From the IMG/VR virus record IMGVR_UViG_3300050821_000611, positions 1 through 44,557 of that record: a stretch of 44,557 nucleotides of DNA, one strand, 5' to 3'. Below the pieces are notes generated by a model, which did not search any database, was not told the origin of the DNA, and saw only the letters and a list, made by a program, of their open reading frames with translations. Shown in pieces: positions 2,773 through 44,557 of the stretch. Positions within the stretch are counted from its first letter, which is position 1; every line of letters begins with the position of its first letter. The position numbers were made by a program, and so were the translations under genes. Origin of the DNA: a virus.

Positions 2773-3083
2773 GTGAGCGAGGAGACAGGGCCAGCGATAA
2801 GCTGGCCTCATTCGTAGGTTCCTGGAGGTTCGTTCTACTTCAGAGCATCTTCCTGGCAATCTGGTTCGCTGTCAATATGATGGTCAAGGTTCTCGCCTGG
2901 GACCCTTACCCGTTCATCCTTGCCAATCTGTTCATGAGTGCGGAGGCCGCCTTCACTGCCCCGATCATCATGATGTCCCAGAACCGGGCCGCCAATGCGG
3001 ACCGGCGTACCCTGCAATCCGACCTTAGTACAGATGAGCAGTCGCTTGAGATCCTCAAGCGCATTGAGGAGAAACTCAAGTGA
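2769..3083 (+). CDS. DUF1003-like membrane protein, putative holin
   Basis: About 104 residues with two membrane segments (near 17-37 and 46-70), then a hydrophilic, charged C-terminus. The stretch DPYPFILANLFMS followed by APIIMMSQNR matches what I know of the DUF1003 family. Position directly before an endolysin suggests the holin or an accessory lysis membrane protein. I chose GTG 2769 because it overlaps the terminase stop as GTGA; an in-frame GTG at 2760 is possible. The next gene also overlaps it as GTGA. Confidence 0.8.
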   Translation: MSERGDRASDKLASFVGSWRFVLLQSIFLAIWFAVNMMVKVLAWDPYPFILANLFMSAEAAFTAPIIMMSQNRAANADRRTLQSDLSTDEQSLEILKRIEEKLK

Positions 3084-3838
3084 TCGCAAGCTGGACCTTT
3101 GATCCGGTCAAGAACTTCACACCGGATGGCCAGGATCGGGTTCTCGGCCTGGTTGTCCATATCATGGATGGCTCATTCGATGGAACCAAGTCCTGGTTCA
3201 ATAACCCTCAGTCCCAGGCATCCAGTCATTTCGGTACCCGCAAGGATGGGTATGCCGAGCAGTGGGTTGACACCAAGAACCGTGCTTGGGCGCAGATGTC
3301 CGGGAACCACGACTATCTGAGTGTTGAGAACGAGGGACTTGGTGGTGCCAGTCTCACGGATGGCCAGCTCTCCCGTGTTGCCGAGATTCTTGCATTCGTT
3401 CACAAGGCTTACGGTGTTCCGATTCAGATCGCCAATTCAGTTGGTGATCAGGGCCTCGCTTGGCATGGAATGGGCGGCAATGCCTGGGGTGGTCACTTTG
3501 ACTGCCCTGGCGATCCTGTCCGCGCACAGTTCCCCGAGATCATCAAGCGCGCTCAGGCCATCTTCAATCCGGTTCCCGCTCCGACCATCGCCCGCTATCA
3601 GGTGACCATCGATGGTCAGACGTATGGCTATGGTGCAAGCGGTCCTCAGGTGACCGCAGTCGGTGAGGCCCTCGTCAAGGCTGGCTTCGGTTCTCACTAC
3701 AAGGTGGGACCTGGACCCGACTGGACCGATGCCGATACTCTGAACTACGAGGATTACCAGAATAGCCTTGGCTACACCGGCTCCGATGCCGATGGCGTTC
3801 CCGGTCCGACTTCGCTTCACCGACTGCTTGGCCAGTGA
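3080..3838 (+). CDS. endolysin: N-acetylmuramoyl-L-alanine amidase
   Basis: 252 residues. The N-terminal domain (about 1-160) is a zinc amidase of the Amidase_2/PGRP fold: an early His in VVHIMDG (H27), and a late block WHGMGG...GHFDCPGD carrying H129, H139 and C142 for zinc binding and catalysis. It would cut the bond between MurNAc and L-Ala in host peptidoglycan. The C-terminus (about 170-252) resembles a cell-wall-binding module I associate with Streptomyces phages and secreted proteins, with NSLGYTGSDADGVPG as its signature. No signal peptide is visible, so release would need the holin. The start is a GTG overlapping the previous stop. Confidence 0.92.
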   Translation: MIASWTFDPVKNFTPDGQDRVLGLVVHIMDGSFDGTKSWFNNPQSQASSHFGTRKDGYAEQWVDTKNRAWAQMSGNHDYLSVENEGLGGASLTDGQLSRVAEILAFVHKAYGVPIQIANSVGDQGLAWHGMGGNAWGGHFDCPGDPVRAQFPEIIKRAQAIFNPVPAPTIARYQVTIDGQTYGYGASGPQVTAVGEALVKAGFGSHYKVGPGPDWTDADTLNYEDYQNSLGYTGSDADGVPGPTSLHRLLGQ

Positions 3839-4107
3839 TCATGACTACCGTAGTCGTGGTACCTAAGCCATCCCCTCCCCCGCCCCCTTCCCTCTTTCGT
3901 AGTCTTTACTTCAGGCGCCAGGATCTCATGACGGGCAATGATGTAGCCCTTCTCCAGAAGAAGCTCAATGGCGCCGGAGCAAGTCTGGTCACTGCTGGAC
4001 TCTTCGACCCGAAGACCCTGTCGGCAGTCAAGGACTATCAGCAGTCCCATGATCTTCAGGTCGATGGGATCGTAGGCCCACTCACTTGGGCTTCTCTTTG
4101 GAGCTAG
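3835..4107 (+). CDS. free-standing peptidoglycan-binding domain protein
   Basis: 90 residues. After a proline-rich N-terminus (PSPPPPPS) comes a PG_binding_1-type repeat: DVALLQKKLNGAGA, then KTLSAVKDYQQSHDLQVDG and GPLTWASL. No catalytic domain is attached. It overlaps the amidase stop (GTG 3835; ATG 3841 is an alternative). It may be a targeting subunit that assembles with the amidase, or a split-off part of a once longer lysin. Confidence 0.85.
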   Translation: MIMTTVVVVPKPSPPPPPSLFRSLYFRRQDLMTGNDVALLQKKLNGAGASLVTAGLFDPKTLSAVKDYQQSHDLQVDGIVGPLTWASLWS

Positions 4108-4110
4108 TCC

Positions 4111-5928
4111 ATGCGCTCTCTTGATGAGATTGCCCGAAAGGTCAAGGCGCTCAAGGATGCCAATCGCGAACGCGATCAGCGGAACCGAGATGTCCACGAT
4201 GTTCGTTCGGGTGATATCGACACGGTGATCCCGGGGTCCATGCCTGATGCATGGCCCCGGCCCGTTGTTGCCAACATGATCGACACCACTGCTCGTGACA
4301 CATCTGAAGTCATGGGCCAGATGCCTAGCATCAACTGCACCAACTCTCTCCAGACAAGTGACCGCAGTAAGAAGTTCTCCAGTAAGCGCACCAAGATGGC
4401 CAACCACTATGTGATTGCCTCAAGGCTTCCAGCTGGAGAGCAGGTTAAGTTCTGCGATCACTACCTGTCCTTCGGTATGGCCGTCTACTCCATTGAGCCG
4501 GACTTCGATATGAAGACTCCGATCATGCGAGTAGAGAATCCGATGGGAGCTTATCCAGAGTTCGATCTGTTCGGAAGGCTTAAGTCCTACTCGCGCGTCT
4601 GGCGCGAGGAGGCTATCTCGCTGGTTGCCAAGTATCCAGGTCTCATGCGTACACTCCGGAAGCAGAACGCTTCCGGGTACGGCAATGACGAAGGATGGGC
4701 AGAGCGGGAGATTGAAGTCTGCAAGTACATGGACAATGATCAGATCGTCATGTACCTTCCGTCTCACAGCAACCGCCTGGTTGACCAGATGGAAAACCCG
4801 ATGGGTAAGCTGACTGTCTCCATTGCGATCCGTCCATCGTTCGATCACGAGATTCGTGGCGCATTCGATGATGCGATCTGGGTTTACCTTGCCAAGAGCC
4901 GTATGGCAATGCTGGGGCTTGAGGCCACAGAAAAGGCCGTACGTGCTCCTCTGGCAGTTCCTCGTGATCTTCAGCGGATGGTCTTCGGCGGTGATGCAGT
5001 TCTCCGTACCGACAGCCCGGAGAAGATCAAGTATGTCGGTATTGACATGCCGCAGTTCGCAGCACAGGAAGCCCAGAATATGGAGCGAGAGCTTAGGCTC
5101 TCGACCCGAACTCCTGAATCCAGGACTGGTGCAGTCAATGCGAACATCATTACAGGCAAGGGCATTGAGGCCCTCCAGGGTGGCTTCGATACTGTCATCA
5201 CCACTGGACAGCAGGTAATCGGCCAAGCTCTCAAGCGTGCCCTTGAGTACGCGTTCGAGATGGACGAGAAGCTCTGGCCGGATGAAAAGAAGACCATTCG
5301 CGGAATGGTCCAAGGTGCACCCTTCGAAGAGACCTACGTCCCTTCGAAGGACATTGGAGGCAACTATCTCGTTGATGTCGCATACGGGTTCGCTGCTGGA
5401 CAGGACCCGGCCAGGGCCATCGTTGCCATGCTTCAGCTCCGTGGAGATAATCTAGTCTCCCGGGACTTTGTTATGCGTCAGCTTCCAATGGACATCGATG
5501 TAGTCCAGATGCAAACCCAGATCGACAACGAGCAGTTTGAGGATGCGCTCAAGTCTGGACTCCAGGGTCTCATGCAGTCCATTCCCCAGATGGCACAGCA
5601 GGGCATGGACCCCATGGATACCATCGTCAAGGTTGCTGAGATCATCAAACTGCGAGAGCAGGGCAAGCCAATCCATGACGCCATCTTCCAGGCATACAAG
5701 CCCAAGGAGGCCCCACAGGGGGCCTCTGCCGGTCCAGAGCAGCAAGGTGGACCAATGGGCCAGGGTGGCCCTCCAGGCGCTCCACAGGGCCCTCCAGGGG
5801 CTCACGGAGCTGCACCGGGTCAAGGTGGTCCAACGGGGATGGATATGATGCAGCTCCTATCCAGCATGAAGAGTACTGGCGGAGCACCCGTCATGACATC
5901 CAGAACTAGGCGACAGGTTCCCATCTAA
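4111..5928 (+). CDS. portal protein
   Basis: 605 residues, following terminase and lysis genes. The N-terminus (PVVANMIDTTARDTSEVMGQMPSI as separate short motifs) and overall length are typical of the portal proteins of actinobacteriophages. Twelve copies would form the ring at the capsid vertex through which DNA is packaged. The C-terminal 60-70 residues are low complexity, rich in Gly, Pro and Gln, and may reach into the capsid or neck. ATG 4111 lies 3 bases past the previous stop, with GGAG nearby. Confidence 0.85.
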   Translation: MRSLDEIARKVKALKDANRERDQRNRDVHDVRSGDIDTVIPGSMPDAWPRPVVANMIDTTARDTSEVMGQMPSINCTNSLQTSDRSKKFSSKRTKMANHYVIASRLPAGEQVKFCDHYLSFGMAVYSIEPDFDMKTPIMRVENPMGAYPEFDLFGRLKSYSRVWREEAISLVAKYPGLMRTLRKQNASGYGNDEGWAEREIEVCKYMDNDQIVMYLPSHSNRLVDQMENPMGKLTVSIAIRPSFDHEIRGAFDDAIWVYLAKSRMAMLGLEATEKAVRAPLAVPRDLQRMVFGGDAVLRTDSPEKIKYVGIDMPQFAAQEAQNMERELRLSTRTPESRTGAVNANIITGKGIEALQGGFDTVITTGQQVIGQALKRALEYAFEMDEKLWPDEKKTIRGMVQGAPFEETYVPSKDIGGNYLVDVAYGFAAGQDPARAIVAMLQLRGDNLVSRDFVMRQLPMDIDVVQMQTQIDNEQFEDALKSGLQGLMQSIPQMAQQGMDPMDTIVKVAEIIKLREQGKPIHDAIFQAYKPKEAPQGASAGPEQQGGPMGQGGPPGAPQGPPGAHGAAPGQGGPTGMDMMQLLSSMKSTGGAPVMTSRTRRQVPI

Positions 5929-10200: not shown

Positions 10201-12153
10201 GTTGCCGAAGGTGCCGATGATAAGACCGTCGCTGCCGCAATGAGCAAGGTCGACCAGGTGGACAGGCCGGATGTGCAGTCCGAAGGACTGTCCTATGCAA
10301 TGGGTAAGAGTGATGCCATCAAGGGCATGAACTCTGCCATCAACAAGTTCTACAATGTGATGAATCGCCTGCCAGCTGAAGTACTCTCACGTAATCCGCT
10401 GTTCTTCCAGCTGTACCGTCAGCACGTCAGTGAGATGTGGTCGGGTGCAATGGACCAGGGGATTACTCACCTGACTCCACTTCGCCAGCAGCAAATGGCC
10501 GAGACCGCCAGACAGCTCGCCCTCAAGGATGTCAAGAAGTTCACGTTCAACATGGACTTCGAGACCAAGCTTGCTCATAATATGAGGTTCCTCTCCCCGT
10601 TCTTCGGCCCCATGCAGGAGTCGTTCACTCGATGGGGAAGGATTCTGGCGGACAAGCCAGAGATCCTCAGTCACGCCAATAATATCTACACTGCACCTAT
10701 CCACGCTGGTCATGCTGTAGATGCACAGGGCAATCCTGTGGACCAGGATGGTTACGTTCATAACGCGGATGGAAGCAAGACGCTAGTCAGCAAGGCTGAT
10801 ATGCACATCCAGTTCCAGGTTCCGACCTGGGCCCAGAAGGGCCTTGGTCTTGACGGTGGGACGATGGTCAACATGCCCATCAATACACTGAACCTGGTTC
10901 TCCAGAATGACCCTTGGTATAATCCTGGAGTCGGTCCATGGGTCCAACTCCCCGCTAACTATGCGGCTCTCAGGTCCAATCCGACCGTTGGCGACACGCT
11001 GAAGCAACTAGGCATTCTTCAGTCTGTCCAGCAGAATACTCTCAGCCAACTGACTGGTGCCGCTCCGAAGTTCCTCAATCAACTGATCACTGACGATCCT
11101 GCCCAGCAGCAGAAAGACATGATCCAGATCATGCAGGCTGAGGACTACAAGTACAAGAATGGCATGCGCCCTACTGAGCCGACATGGCAGGAAGTCAAGG
11201 ACAAGGCTAGTCACGGAGCGCTTATGCGCTCCTTTATGAAGACGATTCTGCCAGTCAGTGCCAGCTTTAAGGACCCTTACCAGTTCTTCCGTGACAGGTA
11301 TCAGGAACTTCAGCAAGCTGATCCGAAGACTGCAGATCAGATCTATCTGGCCAAGTACGGTGAGGCTGCCTTCGCCTTCACGGGTGCACTGAGCAAAAGT
11401 GGCAAGGGGCTTCCGTCTACAGCGGAAGCTGTCATGGCGGATAAGAAGTACTCATACCTGACTGACAAGTTCCCCGAGCTTGCCTCCCTGATTGTCGGTC
11501 CATATGGTGAAGGCCAGTTCAGCCAGACTGCATACACTCAGCAGCTCGCCTCTGGAGACAGGGTCAAGCTGACTGCTCAGCAGTCTATGGACAGTGCCAA
11601 GGCGAATCTTGGCTGGGCCATGTTCGGCAAGTACATGAACCAGGTTACGGCCAGCCTGTACCAGGCTGGCTTCACTTCGTTCCAGGACAAGGGTGCTCAG
11701 CAGTATAACAATCAGCGCAAGGCCATTATCTCTATGCTGACATCTCCGACGCTGCCCAATGGGCAGATCAACAAGATGTACAACGATCAGTTCGACAAGG
11801 CATACAATACTGTAGATCGTACTAAGTATGATCGTCAGGCGGATGCACTGAGGCAGGTTGTCACTGAGGGAAGCCTTGTCAGGGACCCCCTGCGATCTGA
11901 TATCAGGAGCCTGTCTCAGTACCTCGTGTATCGCAGCGCCATGAAGACTGTTCTTGGTGCACGTGGTCAGCAAGCTGGCGGTTCTGCTGATATCAATGCC
12001 AAGCAGAACGCAGACCTCAAGACAATCTTCGAAGGTGTCACTATGAATCTGATTCAGAATGACACTCAGTTCCAGTCACTTCATGACAGATTCCTGGTTC
12101 ACGACATGTTCAATCACTATGATCCTGCACTCACTTCGGCAGTAGGAGGCTGA
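7276..12153 (+). CDS. giant internal virion protein (1,625 residues)
   Basis: The largest gene. It lies right after the portal group, where podoviruses keep proteins ejected with the DNA. It is mostly helical by composition, with Gln/Asn/Ala-rich stretches and a probable coiled coil around 740-820, and has no signal peptide. I cannot assign a catalytic motif with confidence. A tape-measure role is unlikely, since no tail tube or assembly chaperones are present. By position and size it compares with T7 gp16-type ejection proteins, a contextual inference. It is followed by a hydrolase and helical proteins that may be co-ejected. Palindromes lie inside it at 7517-7533, 8683-8699, 11215-11232 and 11409-11429. 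Confidence 0.85.
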   Translation: MILSTPTPSAGFAPAPVDSTQWNAQVVEDAAKAQQQDITYRASNPATDSSWIPDWIKTPVEWVGSKMHDIYSATISRPLATALMAPEIALGTGNTNPFSSETWDRAYQDSSHVSPGQALEFGLQHFFDTNDEVRQALMKPVNYQPKDIFGKPAADSTGKPIIQNLNQTGILWDNPQAVQQHFDSGIQKWISGGLDAATSWYVDPFALAGKSLGAARNFAYVRPAAETANQNIFGAAAAKLTGGAIGVPKTTNNITKNLESSAFNSMGDLIMKQKSKLSAVQGPVLQGAAPLGGDTFTDWVSRQNWAKNSSDSGALAAQLGKAADRTQVDQILSISLGDEVARQALTAKNAELGAMTTMLTRQREGLISNFPANPNPGQAAIHAQQLQDISDQLTGIDRQTSSISAKLNLANSMKSGMYFNPTLSPIASNMGQYVRSLTPMKASESGIGMSLLYNNLYVRPLRVVTGATWGAVRAPGHIDLFDSESHRAFDASIDQSKVYTPAERQELVSKYIGLDGNSRGTYLDVVDRNTVGRIAQKYNLTDEQASAIYNQLGGMKGAARDGRIYSTARIDTASGGSIRADHVDDAGNIIAVSPVLNTQLENTHILTDYEHFNNVLKYNAASFKRLFNEQQIQARAAQNGPLSMAQMQQAQTAAIGGVSGTATARIQQGLQVGKDMADLMGHMWKFNVLMRLGYGPRAIADDFMGQAARFGSWTTFGERMVGGGRNNALRNWNKALNDPTGYEQQISSLDSGINILTERSQKFQDKIDTINSYLPPAKNYTGLGAQGRRQMNQRTSTLAAYQQRLDDTQTSLEALKAQRNKIGETKNRLGDNYIIMPDGTAFPRPYEGPNGALFRDLNTGRKTIDSIMGGTSSDIWNAYRSGDWRTITSAEPGHSAAWLKDVQYQIANDKAAMQVVKGKNAQQLEAWFGTQEGRQYRRESAMNNMSDADHADRIAAHVNMYLPTHTPEAMALRQTVAEGADDKTVAAAMSKVDQVDRPDVQSEGLSYAMGKSDAIKGMNSAINKFYNVMNRLPAEVLSRNPLFFQLYRQHVSEMWSGAMDQGITHLTPLRQQQMAETARQLALKDVKKFTFNMDFETKLAHNMRFLSPFFGPMQESFTRWGRILADKPEILSHANNIYTAPIHAGHAVDAQGNPVDQDGYVHNADGSKTLVSKADMHIQFQVPTWAQKGLGLDGGTMVNMPINTLNLVLQNDPWYNPGVGPWVQLPANYAALRSNPTVGDTLKQLGILQSVQQNTLSQLTGAAPKFLNQLITDDPAQQQKDMIQIMQAEDYKYKNGMRPTEPTWQEVKDKASHGALMRSFMKTILPVSASFKDPYQFFRDRYQELQQADPKTADQIYLAKYGEAAFAFTGALSKSGKGLPSTAEAVMADKKYSYLTDKFPELASLIVGPYGEGQFSQTAYTQQLASGDRVKLTAQQSMDSAKANLGWAMFGKYMNQVTASLYQAGFTSFQDKGAQQYNNQRKAIISMLTSPTLPNGQINKMYNDQFDKAYNTVDRTKYDRQADALRQVVTEGSLVRDPLRSDIRSLSQYLVYRSAMKTVLGARGQQAGGSADINAKQNADLKTIFEGVTMNLIQNDTQFQSLHDRFLVHDMFNHYDPALTSAVGG

Positions 12154-38122: not shown

Positions 38123-38388
38123 TTCTTATCATCGGCAAGTCCATTGGCTCGGTACCAATCACCGAGCTTGAGGGTCTGCCACTGTGCAGGGTCCGCGCAG
38201 TCGTAGGAAATCTGGCCCTTGTCTGTGAAAGTGACCCTCCAGCATGCCAGATTGTCATTGGCGGGGTCGGCAGGGTCATACTGGAGTCCAGTGATGCCAC
38301 CGGCAGTGATCGGCTTGACATTCTTGGATGCCTGGCAGCCAGTGAGAACAAGAGCCGCCAATGCAGCGGCTCCGATCAGCCTCTTCAC
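38119..38388 (-). CDS. predicted lipoprotein
   Basis: About 89 residues starting MKRLIGAAALAALVLTGCQA: basic start, hydrophobic core and lipobox LTGC, so it should be lipidated on Cys and shown on the outside of the membrane. GTG 38388 follows the previous stop at once, with GGATGG upstream; ATG 38403 is an alternative. Phage lipoproteins often block superinfection or act as outer spanins; which applies is unknown. Confidence 0.75.
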   Translation of the reverse strand: MKRLIGAAALAALVLTGCQASKNVKPITAGGITGLQYDPADPANDNLACWRVTFTDKGQISYDCADPAQWQTLKLGDWYRANGLADDKK

Positions 38389-38389
38389 T

Positions 38390-39019
38390 CTAATTCCATC
38401 CATCCTGATAGTACTTCTGGATGTGGGCATTGGTCTCCGGGACCAATTGCCCCGTGTCTCGCTCCTTCATGAGGACACCGCCAGCATGTACGGCGATGAT
38501 CTCAAACCTGTTGTACTGGCGGAGCTTGATCCTGTCTCCGACTACCATGCCTATCTCATTGACGAAGATTCGCTCATGGACAGGCGGGTAGAACTTCTTC
38601 ACGGAAGTGAAGACAGGCTCACCATCATCATCCAGCTTCTGATTGCCAGTAGCATCCATGACTGGAGTCTTGACTGTCCTATTTGTTCCCTTTTTCTCGG
38701 GGACAGGCTGACTCCAGAGCCAGAACGGGGAGGCTGAGAGACTGAACCAGCCGTATTCGGAGTCCTCCGTCACGATCCAGGCGTACTCTCGTCCGTCATA
38801 CTCCCCGATCCACACTATGTAGTGTGTCTTGGCAGTCATGATGGACTTGAATGCCTGGCGCAGCTTGAGAGGCGGCCCAACAGGCCGCCATGTGGTCGAT
38901 CTCAGGTCATCCAAGGCTTTGATGCATGCCTTGGCTACGGTCTCGGTGGAGGTGCCCTCAGGCCATTCCTTGTCAAGAATGAACCTGAGGGCAGTTACCT
39001 CAGAGGCCGTGCTCACTGA
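38390..39019 (-). CDS. 209-residue unknown protein
   Basis: The frame is open further upstream, but I start at GTG 39019, overlapping the preceding gene by about 20 bases. It has a helical N-terminus, then a Trp/Tyr-rich beta region (YIVWIGEYDGREYAWIVTED) and a C-terminal part with GDRIKLRQYNRFEIIAVH. No family recognised. Confidence 0.65.
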   Translation of the reverse strand, partial: SVSTASEVTALRFILDKEWPEGTSTETVAKACIKALDDLRSTTWRPVGPPLKLRQAFKSIMTAKTHYIVWIGEYDGREYAWIVTEDSEYGWFSLSASPFWLWSQPVPEKKGTNRTVKTPVMDATGNQKLDDDGEPVFTSVKKFYPPVHERIFVNEIGMVVGDRIKLRQYNRFEIIAVHAGGVLMKERDTGQLVPETNAHIQKYYQDGWN

Positions 39020-39419
39020 GGGCGAGAGAGAGACTGTCGGCCCAGGTGCGGCCCTTGTCCTGCTTCTGCTGAACTGCACCCATGAAAACACGAGCCTCGG
39101 GAGTAACCTCTGCGAGATCATCGTCCCTAAGGAAGGCTACGGAGGAATATCCGAATGACCCTTCGAACTCCCAAGTAAGGGATTCGATGGGAACTCCAGC
39201 CTTCACGAGCGCCTGACCGACGATGCAGCCAGGCTTCAGCTCGGAGTATTCGTCCCTGTGGTACCCGTTCAGGGCAATACTGCCGTCCTGCCTGATGCGG
39301 TGGACGTAGAGACATCCACCATCCTTACCGTCGGGGAATTCGTAGCCAGCCAGTGGACCAGCCTCATCCACGATCTCCTGGAAGAGTTCGATGGCCCTAG
39401 CCATGTCGATCTTGATCAT
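39000..39419 (-). CDS. unknown protein of the CIVG family, member 1
   Basis: 139 residues from ATG 39419, whose GAGGAGAGAAT site belongs to the repeated leader. It shares C-L-Y-V-H, then K-P-G-C-I-V-G-Q-A-L and a C-terminal helix ending G-x-T-W with the protein at 40853-41278, so the two are paralogues. I have seen this C-I-V-G pattern in unknown actinobacteriophage proteins. Confidence 0.75.
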   Translation of the reverse strand: MIKIDMARAIELFQEIVDEAGPLAGYEFPDGKDGGCLYVHRIRQDGSIALNGYHRDEYSELKPGCIVGQALVKAGVPIESLTWEFEGSFGYSSVAFLRDDDLAEVTPEARVFMGAVQQKQDKGRTWADSLSLALSEHGL

Positions 39420-39478
39420 GATTCTCTCCTCATGAAGTCCTGCGAACGCAGGCAGGGCCGCACAGTACAAGCCTGTGC
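39420..39478 (-). promoter_or_regulatory. structured leader element, copy 5
   Basis: Minus strand: hairpin GCACAG/CTGTGC with a 7-base loop (39460-39478), a second hairpin CCTGC-GTTC-GCAGG (39439-39452), then GAGGAGAGAAT before the ATG. It keeps the two-hairpin plus ribosome-site layout, but with a shorter stem and diverged loop compared with copies 1-4. Confidence 0.6.
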
Positions 39479-39491
39479 AACCTTGTCCACG

Positions 39492-39513
39492 CACGGACCC
39501 CGAAGGGTCCGTG
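39492..39513 (-). other. TTCG-capped hairpin between genes
   Basis: On the minus strand CACGGACCC-TTCG-GGGTCCGTG is a perfect 9-bp stem with an extra-stable tetraloop, 12 bases past the stop of the gene at 39525-40229. No U-run follows, so it may be a processing or 3'-end-protecting element. Confidence 0.65.
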
Positions 39514-39524
39514 AATGTTGGACT

Positions 39525-40229
39525 CTAGCTCTCGTTCCACATTTCCATGTAGAACTTGGCGTTACCGCGAGACTCATCAACGATGAGTTCTCCATCACTA
39601 TTCTCGTACCACTTGAGGGAGCACCACGACATCTTGTTATTGAGGATACGGATGACCTTCTCTTCGGAGATGTAGATGTAGGATGCCTGCGCACCATATC
39701 CGGTCGCAACCTTGGGCTTGAGCCACTGACCCTTCGTGAAGCGGACCTTCGGCTTCAGGGTCCACCTAGAAGTGAACTCGGACTCTCGAAGCACTGAAGT
39801 CACGCCATCAAACGTGAATGCGATCCACGTTTCACCGTCGATGTCGATGGTCTTCTTGACCGTGCGAGTGCAGCACTTGTTCACATCCTGATACTCATCA
39901 CCAGGGTTGAACTTGCTGGCAATGGCAGGCATGGAGTTCTTGAGCTGCTTGATCCACTCGCTCCCAGCATCACTGAAGGTATACTTGCCGGAGTAGACAT
40001 CCCGAGGGGAAGTCCGGTCGAGCGCATCCTTGGCGTCACTGTAACCGTCGCTCTCGCCAGTCTCAGCCTTCCAGAGCTGACCCAGAATGCAGTAGGTGCA
40101 CGAATCCATGTTGAGATCGCCGAGATCGATCTTCTCGCGCCAGTTGACCGGCACGAAGTCGACCTTGCCAGCCACATCATCCAGAAGCTCGATGGAGTTC
40201 TTGACTCGCTCTTCAGCGGTGTAATCCAT
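39525..40229 (-). CDS. 234-residue unknown protein with CIVG-like motif
   Basis: Starts MDYTAEERVKNSIELLDDVA, from the ATG that follows the leader block; the frame extends upstream only through the leader. S-C-T-Y-C-I-L-G-Q-L near residue 45 echoes the C-I-V-G motif of its neighbours. The C-terminus is beta-rich with a W-x-x-x-K-W-Y-E end. Function unknown. Confidence 0.75.
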   Translation of the reverse strand: MDYTAEERVKNSIELLDDVAGKVDFVPVNWREKIDLGDLNMDSCTYCILGQLWKAETGESDGYSDAKDALDRTSPRDVYSGKYTFSDAGSEWIKQLKNSMPAIASKFNPGDEYQDVNKCCTRTVKKTIDIDGETWIAFTFDGVTSVLRESEFTSRWTLKPKVRFTKGQWLKPKVATGYGAQASYIYISEEKVIRILNNKMSWCSLKWYENSDGELIVDESRGNAKFYMEMWNES

Positions 40230-40299
40230 GATTCTCTCTTCCCTGAAAGAAGTGATTCCTAGTGGAATCACAACGCACAGGTACTACACAACCTGTGCG
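40230..40299 (-). promoter_or_regulatory. structured leader element, copy 4
   Basis: Minus strand: CGCACAGG pairs with CCTGTGCG around TTGTGTAGTA (40274-40299), then GTGATTCC-ACTA-GGAATCAC, then AGGGAAGAGAGAATC and ATG. Confidence 0.8.
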
Positions 40300-40309
40300 A
40301 AGCGAGTTA

Positions 40310-40753
40310 CTAGGAGTCTTCGCCGATAAGGTCAGCCTCAATGGCTGCCAGCTTCAGCGTATTGTACTCAGCCTGAAGGCTGTTGAAGTTGGCCAGAAGT
40401 GAAACGTACTCACCATTCAGGTGGTCAGCAGCATCCTCCAGCTTCTCAAGCTCATTGGCGAGCTTGTCATTCTCGGATTGAAGCTCAATTGCCTCACGAA
40501 CTGCGGAGGCATGCAGATCCTGCATGTCCTTGTACTGGTCGGGGTGAACGTATCCGACGGCACGGAGGGCACTTGCAGTGCTGGCGAACTTGCCGACAGC
40601 TGCCTCAAGGTCGGCCACGTTGTAGACGTTGGTGTTCCCGAACTTGTGGACAGGCTTGACATCAGCCTTGTCCGCCCAGTTCTTGACGTTGCCGACGGTC
40701 GTACCGATCTTCTCGGCAAACTGTGCGAACGTCATGACGGAGCTGAAGTCCAT
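40310..40753 (-). CDS. HTH plus coiled-coil protein, putative regulator
   Basis: 147 residues. MTFAQFAEKIGTTVGNVKNW followed by HKFGNTNVYNVADLEAAV is the layout of a MerR/excisionase-type winged helix, the wing being K-F-G-N-T-N-V-Y. Residues 80-140 form a long coiled coil (REAIELQSENDKLANELEKL). A dimeric DNA-binding regulator is likely; it is a candidate to control the right-arm genes. It is preceded by leader copy 3. Confidence 0.72.
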   Translation of the reverse strand: MDFSSVMTFAQFAEKIGTTVGNVKNWADKADVKPVHKFGNTNVYNVADLEAAVGKFASTASALRAVGYVHPDQYKDMQDLHASAVREAIELQSENDKLANELEKLEDAADHLNGEYVSLLANFNSLQAEYNTLKLAAIEADLIGEDS

Positions 40754-40821
40754 TGGATTCTCTCTTCCCTGGAGGTGACCCGAACAGGATCAGAATGCAC
40801 AGGTACTCAGCAACCTGTGCA
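40754..40821 (-). promoter_or_regulatory. structured leader element, copy 3
   Basis: Minus strand: TGCACAGG pairs with CCTGTGCA around TTGCTGAGTA (40796-40821), then TGATCC-TGTTC-GGGTCA, then AGGGAAGAGAGAATC and ATG. Confidence 0.82.
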
Positions 40822-40852
40822 AACCGAACAATCCGGAGCTACTCTAGTCGAA

Positions 40853-41278
40853 CTAGTTGTGCGTGGCGTTCAGGAATGCCTGAAGGGTCGCATTGGCAAC
40901 CTGATATGCGGTGTGCCATGTCGTACCGAGATCCTGGCAACGCTGCATGGCAGCCAGGATCATGTACACCTCCGGCTTGGGCTTCTCGATGACCCCTTCG
41001 CTGGCAAGTGCATTCAGGAGACCAGAGGAACTGACCTCAGTCCGTGCCATGACGTCAAGCGGTACTCCGAGCCGGAAGAGGATCTTGCCGACGATGCATC
41101 CAGGCTCAGGAGAGTCCAGATCAACGCCGTCCTTCACGTTGTGAACGTAGTAGCAGGAAAAGATCTTGCCTTCGGCTGCAACGTCACCATTGGTGCTGAC
41201 GTAGCGATAGCCCTCGGGGGCCTCGGCAACCACAGCACCAGCCTCATCGAGAACAGTGTTAGGGTCAAGCTTGATCAT
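40853..41278 (-). CDS. unknown protein of the CIVG family, member 2
   Basis: 141 residues, paralogue of the protein at 39000-39419: C-Y-Y-V-H, then E-P-G-C-I-V-G-K-I-L-F-R-L-G-V-P and a C-terminal L-G-T-T-W. Unknown function. It follows leader copy 2, so coding and control parts were probably duplicated together. Confidence 0.75.
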   Translation of the reverse strand: MIKLDPNTVLDEAGAVVAEAPEGYRYVSTNGDVAAEGKIFSCYYVHNVKDGVDLDSPEPGCIVGKILFRLGVPLDVMARTEVSSSGLLNALASEGVIEKPKPEVYMILAAMQRCQDLGTTWHTAYQVANATLQAFLNATHN

Positions 41279-41351
41279 TGGATTCTCTCTTCCCTTGGAG
41301 GATCAGACATCAATGATGCCCCCAATGTCCAGATACTCAGCAATCTGGACA
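41279..41351 (-). promoter_or_regulatory. structured leader element, copy 2
   Basis: Minus strand: TGTCCAGA pairs with TCTGGACA around TTGCTGAGTA (41326-41351), then a weaker hairpin (CATCA/TGATG), then AGGGAAGAGAGAATC and ATG. Confidence 0.82.
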
Positions 41352-41361
41352 AAGGATTTGG

Positions 41362-41547
41362 TCACTGACGTTCGTAAAGGTATACGGCCCACGGAATGAA
41401 TTGATCCCCAGTGGATTCTATCTTCAGCAAGAAGGCATCTGTCTTGCCCTCCCTGACGATGACCTTGGATGCCTCAATCAGGCCCTCAGTGGCCTCTTTC
41501 TCAGTGCGATGCTCAGATATCTTCCTGAGCCTACGGTCCTTGCTCAC
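41362..41547 (-). CDS. 61-residue basic unknown protein
   Basis: Starts MSKDRRLRKISEHRTEKEAT from GTG 41547, which overlaps the upstream stop (GTGA) and has GGGAG upstream. The frame runs 16 codons further upstream without a ribosome site. Basic N-terminus, beta-rich C-terminus. Confidence 0.68.
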   Translation of the reverse strand: MSKDRRLRKISEHRTEKEATEGLIEASKVIVREGKTDAFLLKIESTGDQFIPWAVYLYERQ

Positions 41548-41762
41548 AAGATGCTCCCGAGTCCTTCCTTTGCCAGGCGGATAGTGCTGAAGCACTTGAC
41601 GCTCGCATGATTCCTGCCGAGCTTCTTGTACTTATAGCCAGCACCCTTGCCATATGGCTCAAAGATGTAGCCCAGGAGCTTGCGACCATCCTTCAGGTAG
41701 ACAGGACGAGTACGAGCCGAGTCCCCCTTGTGGGGACCGGCTACGAACATGCAAGCCTTCAC
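41544..41762 (-). CDS. 72-residue basic unknown protein
   Basis: Starts MKACMFVAGPHKGDSARTRP from GTG 41762 (overlapping GTGA, GGAGA upstream); GTG 41771 is possible. Contains GYIFEPYGKGAGYKYKKLGR. Basic, no domain recognised. Confidence 0.65.
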   Translation of the reverse strand: MKACMFVAGPHKGDSARTRPVYLKDGRKLLGYIFEPYGKGAGYKYKKLGRNHASVKCFSTIRLAKEGLGSIL

Positions 41763-41962
41763 TCTCCGCACCTCACAATCTGGTAGACGCCAACCTGAGC
41801 CACCGAGACATCATGCAGCTCCGCCAGAGCAGAGTTAATGTGTCCCTCAAGTGAGACCGGATTGGCTATCTGGAAAGTGTGATGCAGCATCGTAGGACTG
41901 TCGCCGATGGTGTAATCCACGGCGTACAGGTTACCACGAGAGCCATTGCGGAAGATTCTCAT
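41759..41962 (-). CDS. 67-residue unknown protein
   Basis: Starts MRIFRNGSRGNLYAVDYTIG; GGGAGCAG before the ATG, which overlaps the previous stop. Beta-rich, ending VGVYQIVRCGE. Confidence 0.65.
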   Translation of the reverse strand: MRIFRNGSRGNLYAVDYTIGDSPTMLHHTFQIANPVSLEGHINSALAELHDVSVAQVGVYQIVRCGE

Positions 41963-42138
41963 GACTGCTCCCAGAACTTACGAGCATCGATGTCAAAGTG
42001 ACTTACGCCAAGCTCATTAGCAACAGCATGCTCGATCTCACCCTTGTGGGCAGAGGAAGCAATGACAACGATCTCCTTGAGAGATCGTCCTTCGAGACTG
42101 TTGTCCTTCTGGAAGAACTGAACCTTGATCCTAGGCAT
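41959..42138 (-). CDS. 59-residue unknown protein
   Basis: Starts MPRIKVQFFQKDNSLEGRSL, then KEIVVIASSAHKGEIEHAVA. GAGGTG precedes the ATG, and both ends overlap neighbours. Beta-alpha-beta by eye, with no known family. Confidence 0.65.
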   Translation of the reverse strand: MPRIKVQFFQKDNSLEGRSLKEIVVIASSAHKGEIEHAVANELGVSHFDIDARKFWEQS

Positions 42139-42331
42139 TCCACACCTCTACGAGTTGATTGAAGGGAGCGTAGGCGACGGCACTCATGCCAAATCGGGCA
42201 GAGAGTCCCGTAACCATCACCTGATCCTCCTGCCACTCGACGCAACCGATGATCAGAAGATCAAAGGTGTCATCGGGGTGGATGAAGGGGATCAAATCAT
42301 CCTTCATCAGATCGTTGGATGCAACGTTCAT
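42131..42331 (-). CDS. 66-residue unknown protein
   Basis: Starts MNVASNDLMKDDLIPFIHPD from the ATG next to the leader block AGGGAAGAGAGAAT. Acidic N-terminal half, hydrophobic middle (TFDLLIIGCVEW). Function unknown. Confidence 0.7.
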   Translation of the reverse strand: MNVASNDLMKDDLIPFIHPDDTFDLLIIGCVEWQEDQVMVTGLSARFGMSAVAYAPFNQLVEVWNA

Positions 42332-42397
42332 GATATTCTCTCTTCCCTGTTCGGCACTATGATGCCGGGAATGTGATCGTACTCTGCAACGATCACA
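42332..42397 (-). promoter_or_regulatory. structured leader element, copy 1
   Basis: Minus strand: TGTGATCG pairs with CGATCACA around TTGCAGAGTA (42372-42397), then CGGCA-TCATAG-TGCCG, then AGGGAAGAGAGAAT (42335-42348) and ATG. Confidence 0.82.
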
Positions 42398-42405
42398 AAC
42401 CGTGG

Positions 42406-42543
42406 TCACAGTTCCTCGTCTCCATGAAGATCGGAGACGCACCATTCATCGGATTCGCCATTCCTGTGACCGCAGTCCCAGTCCATGCATGCCTCACAAC
42501 CCCAGACGGTTCCGGGTTCGTGAGGATAGTTTATGTGTTCCAT
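42406..42543 (-). CDS. 45-residue zinc-binding microprotein
   Basis: Starts MEHINYPHEPGTVWGCEACM. C16-x2-C19, C24, H26 and C35 could hold one zinc ion. ATG overlaps the upstream stop (TAATG); the frame is open further upstream. Confidence 0.62.
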   Translation of the reverse strand: MEHINYPHEPGTVWGCEACMDWDCGHRNGESDEWCVSDLHGDEEL

Positions 42544-42743
42544 TAGATCCCACATCCCTTGCGGAAGCGACGGAACTCTGTGGAGCTGATATGTATGGTT
42601 GCCTTGATAGTGCAACCATACTTGAACTCGACACTCTTTGCAGTCTGGCTGATTGTCTCTTCGATGAACACATTGGGCTCATTGCGAAGCAGGATCAGCC
42701 AACCGTTGCCTTGTGCGGCCTCAAGCCGCACTGCCATAGTCAC
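42543..42743 (-). CDS. 66-residue unknown protein
   Basis: Starts MTMAVRLEAAQGNGWLILLR, from GTG 42743 overlapping the previous stop (GTGA); ATG 42737 is possible. Beta-rich with a basic end (FRRFRKGCGI). Confidence 0.62.
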   Translation of the reverse strand: MTMAVRLEAAQGNGWLILLRNEPNVFIEETISQTAKSVEFKYGCTIKATIHISSTEFRRFRKGCGI

Positions 42744-43003
42744 GAGTTCACCAGCTGATAGGCGGACTCGTACTTGGCGTACTCATACTCCGATACTGTA
42801 CAGTCTCGCCACATCTCATTGACGTACATGTCAAAGATGTAAACACCTTCAGAGCTATTGCCACAGCCAAGCCACTCATACAGTGGAGAGTGACCATCGC
42901 AGTCGCCTTCGATGAATGTCAGACCCCTCGGGGTCCAGACCGTCCATCCACGACGGGGATAACCATCGACATCCTTGGGTGCACGGATGTATGTGATGTT
43001 CAC
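42740..43003 (-). CDS. 87-residue unknown protein
   Basis: Starts MNITYIRAPKDVDGYPRRGW; AGGGAAG before the GTG. Aromatic-rich, acidic C-terminus with many Tyr and Glu (SEYEYAKYESAYQLV). No domain recognised. Confidence 0.65.
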   Translation of the reverse strand: MNITYIRAPKDVDGYPRRGWTVWTPRGLTFIEGDCDGHSPLYEWLGCGNSSEGVYIFDMYVNEMWRDCTVSEYEYAKYESAYQLVNS

Positions 43004-43215
43004 AGCACTTCCCTTTCGATGGCGTCAAGTGCCTGCTTCTCGTCACGGTATACTTTGCTCAAGCTCTGTGGGTAGTTGTCCAAGCGGAACCGGAAGGAAG
43101 TGTCATCACCACCCTGTCGATACAAGGTGGCAACACTTTCTCCAGTGCTGCGCAGGATGACAATCCACAGCCTATCCTTGAGCTTGACGAGCTGGAAACT
43201 CTTGTGCCTACGCAT
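43000..43215 (-). CDS. 71-residue basic unknown protein
   Basis: Starts MRRHKSFQLVKLKDRLWIVI from the ATG overlapping the upstream stop (TGATG), with GAGAGG upstream. Basic, beta hairpin followed by a helix (DEKQALDAIEREVL). Confidence 0.65.
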   Translation of the reverse strand: MRRHKSFQLVKLKDRLWIVILRSTGESVATLYRQGGDDTSFRFRLDNYPQSLSKVYRDEKQALDAIEREVL

Positions 43216-43397
43216 CAGAGAGCCTCTCGCACCAGGAAGAGCCGGTGGGGAATCTTGGCCCACAGCTTGGCCTTGCCAACTTCGGCAAGAGCCTTGGTGC
43301 TGAAGACGTAGATGCCCACCAAGCCATGCTTGTTGCAGGAGACCTCATACCGGTCGAACATGAGAACCTCATGCTTGACCTTGAGCAGGCTGACCAT
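43215..43397 (-). CDS. 60-residue basic unknown protein
   Basis: Starts MVSLLKVKHEVLMFDRYEVS; GGAGG upstream, ATG overlapping the previous stop (TGATG). Basic, with a C-terminal helix. Confidence 0.65.
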   Translation of the reverse strand: MVSLLKVKHEVLMFDRYEVSCNKHGLVGIYVFSTKALAEVGKAKLWAKIPHRLFLVREAL

Positions 43398-43690
43398 CAC
43401 TTGACATCCTCCATGGCATTGGCGAACCAATCGGACTGTGCATCCCGGATGCCGATCAACCAGACCGTAGCCTCTCTGCGCGTCTTGATTCCGGTCCGAC
43501 AAGGACCGTTGCCAATGGCACTGAGGAGACGGAAGGTCGGGGAGATGACAGGGGATGCGTACCAGAGGTCGTTGAGCTTCTGAACGAGCCCAATCGGCTC
43601 GTTCATGTACTTGACCATGTAGGTAAGTCCGCAGCCAAGGGTGTTGTCCTTGCCAGCCGTGAGGACATACTTGATGTCCAACTTATCCAT
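43397..43690 (-). CDS. 97-residue unknown protein, first gene at the right end
   Basis: Starts MDKLDIKYVLTAGKDNTLGC; GGGGAGAAG lies upstream (GTG 43696 is an alternative start). The open frame reaches 43849, but that part crosses a strong hairpin and has no start signal. Mixed alpha/beta, no family recognised. Confidence 0.65.
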   Translation of the reverse strand: MDKLDIKYVLTAGKDNTLGCGLTYMVKYMNEPIGLVQKLNDLWYASPVISPTFRLLSAIGNGPCRTGIKTRREATVWLIGIRDAQSDWFANAMEDVK

Positions 43691-44460
43691 GCTCACATCT
43701 TCTCCCCAGATCAGAGAGCGGTGCTTAAGGCACCGCTTCCCAGGAAGATGAACAGCTGCACAAGCCTGCTCATCAACCTGCGAGAGTAGCCAACCGTTTA
43801 CACGACTGATAACCCTCTCGATAACCACCCTTGCGGGTGATCCGAGCAACTCTCACGAGTTGCTCAAATAGGGAAGAAGAGAGAATGTTCGACTCGTTGA
43901 TCATTGAGTCAGGTCACAAGCCGTAGACACTGGCCAGCGTGTATCGTCTGGCGGTGCTTAGGAACTTGCACACCTGGGCCGTTCTGCTGGGCCCAAGCCG
44001 TATTGGTTCAATCAACAGGCGCTTCCTTTGGATTAGCTCAGACCGATACCTAGATCAGTCCAGAACCATTGTCCTCCGGGCTAGCAGTGATTGCAGCTCA
44101 CTACTGGGCATCCTCGCTTGACCATCGGAGGGTGTGCCTTGCGAGAGGCTTAGACCATGAGGATCACAGGGGTTGTAGCCTGACGTGGATGACTCCATGC
44201 CGTGTCTGTGATCTTCCCGGTGTCATTCCCGGTTCGTTCTGGTGTGAGCCTAGCGGCCCACTGTCGTGGAAGCAAGGTCTGGATTCAAGAGCCTTTGCGG
44301 CCCTTTGTTTCTTGTCCCGCTCTTTCCGACATCACAAACTTTACGGGGTCTAGGTAACGGGGAAGATACCCAAACGGTCACGTGCTGATAACGAAGGCTG
44401 ATCCATTAACCGACCGTTCGGTATGTATTTAGCAAGCCTAACGATATAGGTGCTCAATCG
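43691..44460. other. gene-free right-end region
   Basis: No convincing gene except a possible 13-codon frame at 43885. It holds a hairpin at 43720-43740 (AGCGGTGC/GCACCGCT) just upstream of the first leftward gene, and the orphan leader at 43844-43926. From 43927 to 44460 I see only scattered weak inverted repeats and nothing I can name. The leftward promoter for the right-arm operon should lie here, but no consensus site stands out. Confidence 0.6.
43844..43926 (+). promoter_or_regulatory. orphan leader-like element with a 13-codon frame
   Basis: GAGCAACTC pairs with GAGTTGCTC around TCAC (43844-43865), followed by AGGGAAGAAGAGAGA directly before ATG 43885. This is the same kind of hairpin plus ribosome block seen in front of five leftward genes, but it points rightward. 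The frame that follows is only MFDSLIIESGHKP. It could be a remnant of an inverted gene or a true leader peptide. Confidence 0.5.
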
Positions 44461-44557
44461 TTGAAGGTTGAACCAAGGTGTACTATGGCCTCCGCCATGT
44501 GACATTGCACTGCATCCACTGGTCTAGACCACTCATGTCAACAGACTGTTGAAGCAT
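44461..44557. repeat. 97-bp direct terminal repeat, right copy
   Basis: Identical to bases 1-97. It shows that the window closes on itself. Confidence 0.95.

Follow-up and report, generated by a model that had tools for sequence, protein, structure and literature searches.

Structured leaders in the right arm

The DNA analysed here, called the window in the following, is the virus contig IMGVR_UViG_3300050821_000611 of IMG/VR (44,557 bases), and this report concerns a set of structured leaders that precede five genes of its right arm. The terminase of the window is 66-67% identical to those of the Beephvirinae, a group of Streptomyces podoviruses (Stella, FlowerPower, WRightOn, Manuel and Immanuel3), and for its capsid protein the identity to the counterparts in this subfamily reaches 73%. 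The right arm is an array of small genes, all pointing leftward, and no sigma-70-like promoter was found in it (38300-44557). Two of the five leader-bearing genes (starts 41278 and 39419) are phrog_572 paralogues, and outside the window phrog_572 was found in Streptomyces phages only. Each leader copy is a cis-acting RNA element that lies between two cistrons of the polycistronic early (right-arm) mRNA and can adopt two states.

An earlier note on this DNA had reported four perfect hairpins in front of four of these genes. Their places (42372-42397, 41326-41351, 40796-40821 and 40274-40299, minus strand) and their perfect pairing were confirmed, whereas the dimensions given in the note, an 8-bp stem and a 10-base loop, were revised; the T and the A at the two ends of that loop pair too, and the stem, termed P3, therefore has 9 bp and the remaining loop 8 bases (TGCTGAGT in two copies, TGCAGAGT and TGTGTAGT in one each). 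Nor do the hairpins stand alone, since folding of whole intergenic segments revealed that most of them are the apex of a nested structure. This structure was searched for with a descriptor requiring an outer helix P1 of at least 5 bp, a helix P2 of at least 2 bp, a symmetrical internal loop of 1-2 nt, a P3 of at least 6 bp and an energy of -22 kcal/mol or lower. All four window copies share the plan of a P1 of 7-10 bp, a short junction, a P2 of 2-4 bp, a TT/TT mismatch (UU/UU in the RNA) and a 9-bp P3, the complete structure spanning 57-65 nt. These four matches of the same design (TT/TT, 9-bp P3, 8-nt loop) lie inside 2.2 kb of the window, each before a gene, while about one descriptor match, whatever its plan, turns up per shuffled strand at -22 kcal/mol. 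The stop codon that ends the upstream gene falls within P1 or just 5′ of it. The 3′ strand of P1 sits within a competing hairpin, P4, which corresponds to the second small hairpin of the earlier note, and a purine-rich ribosome-binding site comes next. The nearly identical block seen in the note directly before the start codons is equally real, as the window contains exactly four occurrences of GGGAAGAGAGAAT, every one a few bases 5′ of one of the four starts.

All copies lie on the minus strand. Copy A (42356..42412) has the outer helix ACTGTGA/TCATAGT, which includes the upstream TGA stop, followed by TT/TT and a 9-bp P3 with the loop TGCAGAGT. Its P4 (42352..42367, CGGCA-TCATAG-TGCCG) carries the 3′ strand of P1 as its loop, and the ribosome-binding block AGGGAAGAGAGAAT (42335..42348), common to the four window leaders, precedes the gene at 42331-42131. 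Copy B (41307..41371) likewise contains the TGA stop of the upstream gene in P1, has TT/TT and a P3 loop of TGCTGAGT, and is followed by P4 (41305..41321, GGGCATC-ATT-GATGTCT) and by the ribosome-binding block (41282..41295) of the phrog_572 gene at 41278-40853. With an RNA model, copy A, a training sequence, scores 65 bits, and copy B, which is outside the training set, scores 48 bits (E 1e-7). In copy C (40779..40837; TT/TT, P3 loop TGCTGAGT) the upstream stop lies 18 nt 5′ of P1. Its P4 (40776..40792, TGATCC-TGTTC-GGGTCA) is the weakest and is no better than that of shuffles; the ribosome-binding block (40757..40770) precedes the gene at 40753-40310, whose product had been described as a helix-turn-helix (HTH)/coiled-coil protein. 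Copy D (40257..40315) has the P1 TCCTAGT/ACTAGGA with the upstream TAG stop inside it, TT/TT and a P3 loop of TGTGTAGT. An 8-bp P4 (GTGATTCC-ACTA-GGAATCAC, 40252..40271) overlaps the 3′ strands of both P1 and P2, and the ribosome-binding block (40231..40244) precedes the gene at 40229-39525. The fifth, diverged copy that the note had recognized before the gene at 39419 holds up as a variant. This copy E (39446..39492) has a 10-bp P3 with a loop of 7 and is without TT/TT, its upstream stop lies about 35 nt 5′ of P1, and a P4-like hairpin (39439..39452, CCTGC-GTTC-GCAGG) is followed by AGGAGAGAAT and then by the phrog_572 gene at 39419-39000.

As GC-rich hairpins located just past stop codons, two of which (both in copy D) pass a loose terminator scan, these structures could be taken for terminators of the intrinsic kind, or for attenuators, that act on the upstream genes. 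We regard this as very improbable, because no genuine T run follows the hairpins and the purine-rich ribosome-binding site comes next.

At 43844-43890 (plus strand) of the window, a 9-bp hairpin, GAGCAACTC/GAGTTGCTC, is followed by AGGGAAGAAGAGAGAATG, which resembles the ribosome-binding site of the leaders and points rightward, before a reading frame of about 13 codons.

Distribution among related phages

Further covarying copies in related phages, whose absence the earlier note would have counted against a selected structure, were looked for and found. In annotated Beephvirinae genomes, many right-arm genes carry leaders of about 67-110 bases, and 38 of the 98 distinct right-arm leaders (Beephvirinae and window) contain a descriptor match, compared with 0.26% of shuffled leaders. 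Right-arm stretches of uncultivated relatives, 33 of which were reached through terminase homology, gave 175 matches versus 16 in shuffles; in 73 of the 175 a purine-rich site and a start codon come next. Over all sets, the single descriptor recovered 106 distinct copies. No descriptor match with a ribosome-binding site was found in window positions 1-26000 or in the left arm of Stella, and within these two phages, whose left arms were scanned, the elements with a ribosome-binding site are confined to right-arm, non-structural genes. Such leaders are absent from the distant capsid/terminase relatives examined, namely Bacillus phage poppyseed, Streptomyces phage Success and ct2KA10.

The traits common across the relatives are the nested helices, the mismatch between P2 and P3, the competition between P1 and P4, and the ribosome-binding site. 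The identity of the mismatch varies within and between genomes (UU/UU, U/U, G/G or A/C), and the P3 loop is usually 3-5 nt long and differs even inside one genome. In L084, the closest relative with a right arm compared, one loop of 8 nt resembles those of the window in sequence (TGTTGAAT), and a second one is 5 nt long. The near-constant loop noted earlier thus describes the four window copies correctly and finds no support as a mark of function; it is local to the window phage and arose perhaps from copying among its own leaders.

These observations bear on the suggestion of the earlier note that the structure is perhaps bound by a phage protein, and more generally on a reading in which the leaders are recognized by an RNA-binding protein, of phage or host origin, through which the early genes would be jointly repressed or activated. 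Repetition before many co-directional genes, the nearly identical P3 loops of the four window copies and an internal mismatch at a fixed place would all suit such a protein. However, the stems are sequence-free, the loop and the mismatch identity vary as described above, and no RNA-binding domain was found in the neighbouring products tested, so that we consider this explanation improbable. Nothing supports binding by the specific candidate, the HTH/coiled-coil product of 40753-40310, which gave only sub-threshold coiled-coil and MerR-like matches; a recognizer of fixed sequence is, moreover, hard to square with a free stem and loop.

The leader family is invisible to sequence-only searches, and its relatives were therefore reached via protein homologues (TerL and phrog_572). 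A nucleotide search of the window region against phage records gave no match, a two-part motif pattern returned only unrelated chance matches in IMG/VR, and a search of IMG/VR with the HTH/coiled-coil protein found no relatives. No Rfam 15 family matches the leaders at the gathering score or, for a few relatives, at E up to 1; in the window the only Rfam matches were to tRNA, and in the other sequences they were to tRNA and rRNA, apart from chance matches below the threshold. The literature searches made here found no description of these leaders in Streptomyces phages, and the right-arm leaders bear no such annotation in the phage records examined. The element is best filed as an RNA family absent from Rfam that belongs with the intercistronic, start-associated RNA elements.

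On the contig L098, two different leader elements (2983-3979 and 3480-5045) are each present twice before different genes, with the whole P1-P3 segment identical, which points to a recent copying of leaders or duplication of genes.

Selection on the RNA structure

Nearly every pair position shows four to six different standard pairs in 48 structure-registered UU/UU copies, a count that is partly circular as the descriptor required pairing; the shuffled-descriptor counts given above and the permutation of P4 flanks described below are free of this circularity. As P1 was misplaced when copies of mixed geometry were aligned with MAFFT, covariation was counted on these registered copies and on a single geometry class, A5. 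In the 15-sequence A5 alignment, 97.3% of the cells are paired, a value inflated by the choice of copies with the descriptor, which does not, on the other hand, demand the spread of pair types. The same alignment contains 85 double changes versus 25 in shuffles (0 of 500) and has a covariation score of 0.81 versus 0.21. For these descriptor-chosen copies, RNAalifold recovers nearly the same fold when no structure is supplied, with double changes at 14 pairs. In the A5 class, the TGA stop is part of P1 and is followed by CC pairing with GG and by a bulged CA; U-A replaces one C-G in two copies.

In a search treating G-U and A-C alike, the helices contained 129 G-U pairs versus 52 A-C pairs on the mRNA strand. 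This excess is partly compositional and remains after correction for composition (p 0.0025), which argues for selection on the mRNA strand and not on a DNA cruciform. The conclusion of the earlier note that compensatory stem changes reflect a selected RNA structure is accordingly strengthened, and it is nearly certain that the leaders are RNA structures under selection. A DNA-level element, whether a cruciform, a protein-binding inverted repeat, or a recombination or duplication module, would by the same token be hardly credible. Intergenic inverted repeats could aid gene shuffling, and both phrog_572 paralogues do have a copy; yet, apart from the G-U excess, covariation with free stems speaks against a sequence-specific duplex site, those copies that have a ribosome-binding site point the way transcription runs, and the element is tied to stop and start codons.

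Competition between P1 and P4 and placement at stop codons

A P4 of at least 4 bp encloses or overlaps the 3′ strand of P1 in 46 of the 48 copies. Its mean energy is -7.1 kcal/mol, versus -3.2 kcal/mol after exchange of the 3′ flanks between copies, and none of 200 such permutations went below -4.0 kcal/mol. This permutation is decisive, whereas an earlier test, in which the minimum free energy fold of the 3′ segment had to enclose the P1 strand (24 of 37 versus 40% in shuffles), was indecisive because short segments often fold in that way. The P4 pairs vary among copies (CGGCA/TGCCG, CAGCAT/ATGCTG, GATCC/GGATC, TGGTC/GACCA and others), implying that P4 covaries as well. An H-type pseudoknot, in which P1 and P4 may form together in copies whose P4 loop is the P1 strand, was considered; as the pairing bases are common to both helices in many copies, mutually exclusive states are favoured. 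By nearest-neighbour energies, the P1 fold is favoured over the P4 fold by a median of 4.6 kcal/mol, which fits the need that P4 form only once P1 is lost.

The elements are also placed tightly with respect to the adjoining cistrons. Among 97 copies with a recognizable upstream frame, the upstream stop is inside or overlaps the 5′ strand of P1 in 53 and lies no more than 18 nt upstream in 36 (together 89). A stop triplet occurs in the P1 5′ arm of 62 of 71 matches, compared with 28% for shuffled arms. The distance from the 3′ end of P1 to the start codon is mostly 16-38 nt (median 23), and the P1-P3 arm measures 25.5 +/- 2.2 levels, internal loops included. In folds of seven first-gene leaders examined, no long P1-P3 structure was found; several of these leaders have a single strong hairpin near the ribosome-binding site instead.

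Such placement raises the possibility, which we would put on the unlikely side and yet close to the processing reading favoured below, of a translation-coupled two-state switch that operates without cleavage. A ribosome terminating on the upstream gene would cover the 5′ strand of P1, P4 would form and the downstream start would be used, while an idle upstream gene would leave P1-P3 in place. P1-P3 would also shorten the path from stop to start from 67-110 to about 23-30 nt, aiding reinitiation. The stop stands where a terminating ribosome would open one of two exclusive helices, the exclusivity of P1 and P4 is kept with covariation, and the end of P1 lies mostly 16-38 nt from the start, all of which argue for this switch. 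Against it, most of the folds modelled for either state leave the ribosome-binding site, which lies shortly 3′ of P4, with weak pairing or none. Nor does the switch account for the long P2-P3 duplex with its conserved mismatch, and the stops of copies C and E lie 18 and about 35 nt before P1.

Intercistronic processing as the favoured mechanism

We tentatively favour the reading of the element as an intercistronic processing and insulation site cut by a nuclease of the RNase III type. It is suggested by a sequence-free duplex of about 25 levels that occurs only between cistrons, and by the resemblance of the half consisting of P4 and the ribosome-binding site to a first-gene leader. The long, imperfect P1-P3 duplex would be the site for a host double-strand-specific nuclease of this kind. 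A cut would separate the cistrons, and the upstream message would end in a structured 3′ region; the cut would also take away the partner of P1, so that P4 could fold as a 5′ hairpin just before a strong ribosome-binding site, a product that would resemble the first-gene leaders, which are without P1-P3. Each small early gene could thereby become its own translation unit despite an operon in which no internal promoter is recognizable. P1 would also be opened by a ribosome that terminates at the stop within it, and upstream translation may thus modulate processing. Both processes may act jointly, with an idle upstream gene leaving the duplex open to cutting and an active one melting P1. In the broadest form of this idea, which we think unlikely, the phage subfamily would control many early genes singly by a shared, sequence-free two-state RNA switch whose state (P1-P3, or P3 together with P4) is set by the ribosome terminating on the preceding gene and in its turn governs cutting by a nuclease as well as initiation at the following start codon.

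Streptomyces would supply such an enzyme in AbsB, an active RNase III whose family processes rRNA precursors and polycistronic mRNA (PMC2936110). As expected of such a site, the duplex extends over about 20 or more levels, is sequence-free and lies between cistrons. Several points weigh against this reading. To our knowledge, RNase III substrates are not reliably recognizable from sequence, and the mismatches and loops may have another role. Cleavage does not need, and a ribosome switch would, the close placement of the stop seen in the 89 of 97 copies above (within P1 or up to 18 nt 5′ of it), which fits a ribosome-set switch as well as it fits processing. In several copies, the 5′ strand of P4 is the 3′ side of the P1/P2 junction, and a cut there would destroy P4, so that cleavage would have to fall upstream of P4. 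Finally, AbsB is a Streptomyces enzyme, and the window phage may have another host.

Comparison with known systems

The earlier note had likened the leaders to the start-associated sequences (SAS) of cluster K mycobacteriophages, which are characterized by a 13-bp sequence, GGGATAGGAGCCC, extended SAS (ESAS) arms of 17 bp with conserved sequence, and a proposed role in translation (PMC3203893). The likeness in layout stands: as in that system, the elements are repeated directly before many right-arm non-structural starts, with a purine-rich block near the start codon and an inverted repeat just upstream (PMC3203893). Unlike the conserved 17-bp ESAS repeats, the stems here vary at nearly every position yet stay paired, and the competition between P1 and P4, the stop in P1 and the internal mismatch are features that the available part of that paper does not describe for ESAS (PMC3203893). 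The SAS consensus itself is absent, since a search of the window for GGGATAGGAGCCC with up to two mismatches gave one two-mismatch match, far from the leader genes, where 1.2 would be expected by chance.

Coliphage T7 has RNase III processing sites between its early genes. Like these sites, the elements described here, as putative targets of cleavage, are sequence-free hairpins that extend over about two turns of helix, contain an internal loop and lie between small early genes of one polycistronic transcript. We know of no conserved competing hairpin before the next start at the T7 sites. In repY/repZ of IncI plasmids, a translational-coupling switch is operated by a terminating ribosome that opens an RNA helix. 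The present elements share with it a stop of the upstream cistron in or beside a helix and an alternative pairing before the downstream start; unlike such single regulatory loci, they are repeated before many genes, and their ribosome-binding site is mostly not sequestered.

More than 100 distinct copies of an RNA family absent from Rfam are thus available in cultured Streptomyces podoviruses and their uncultivated relatives. The combination of cultured phages with tractable hosts, for which an absB mutant is known, makes the expression of many small early genes from a long operon directly testable. This natural library of structure-conserved, sequence-free intercistronic elements could help to learn what rules govern RNA processing, or the coupling of translation, in Actinobacteria.

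Leaders of the first early genes

Several further features were observed, some of them near the start of the early operon. The first-early-gene leaders of L017, L019, L020 and L021 contain CCCTTAA...AAGGG, in which, unlike in the intercistronic leaders, the ribosome-binding site can pair with CCCTT just upstream. Degenerate fragments of bacterial 16S rRNA are present in L016, which is Stella (10526-10634, minus strand; record positions 45525-45633), L098 (1158-1300), L110 (2415-2602) and L084 (10075-10257). They always represent the same part of the molecule, model positions 106-311 or 347, with 85, 84, 61 and 42 bits, the 42-bit one being below the gathering score; the fragment of Stella lies 5′ of the gene that opens the early operon. 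No 16S fragment of this kind was found in the window. The recurrence looks like a mimic of the 16S 5′ domain.

A TTTGAGAACTCAA-type sequence, which we take to be boxA-like, as in actinobacterial rRNA operon leaders, occurs at L016 10189, L017 10056, L019 9983, L020 9964, L022 9783, L025 9836, L026 9918 (minus strand) and L099 1169 (plus strand), in the same place in each, and the first early gene begins a few hundred bases downstream. Together with the 16S fragments, this sequence suggests an antitermination leader of the rRNA type for the early operon.

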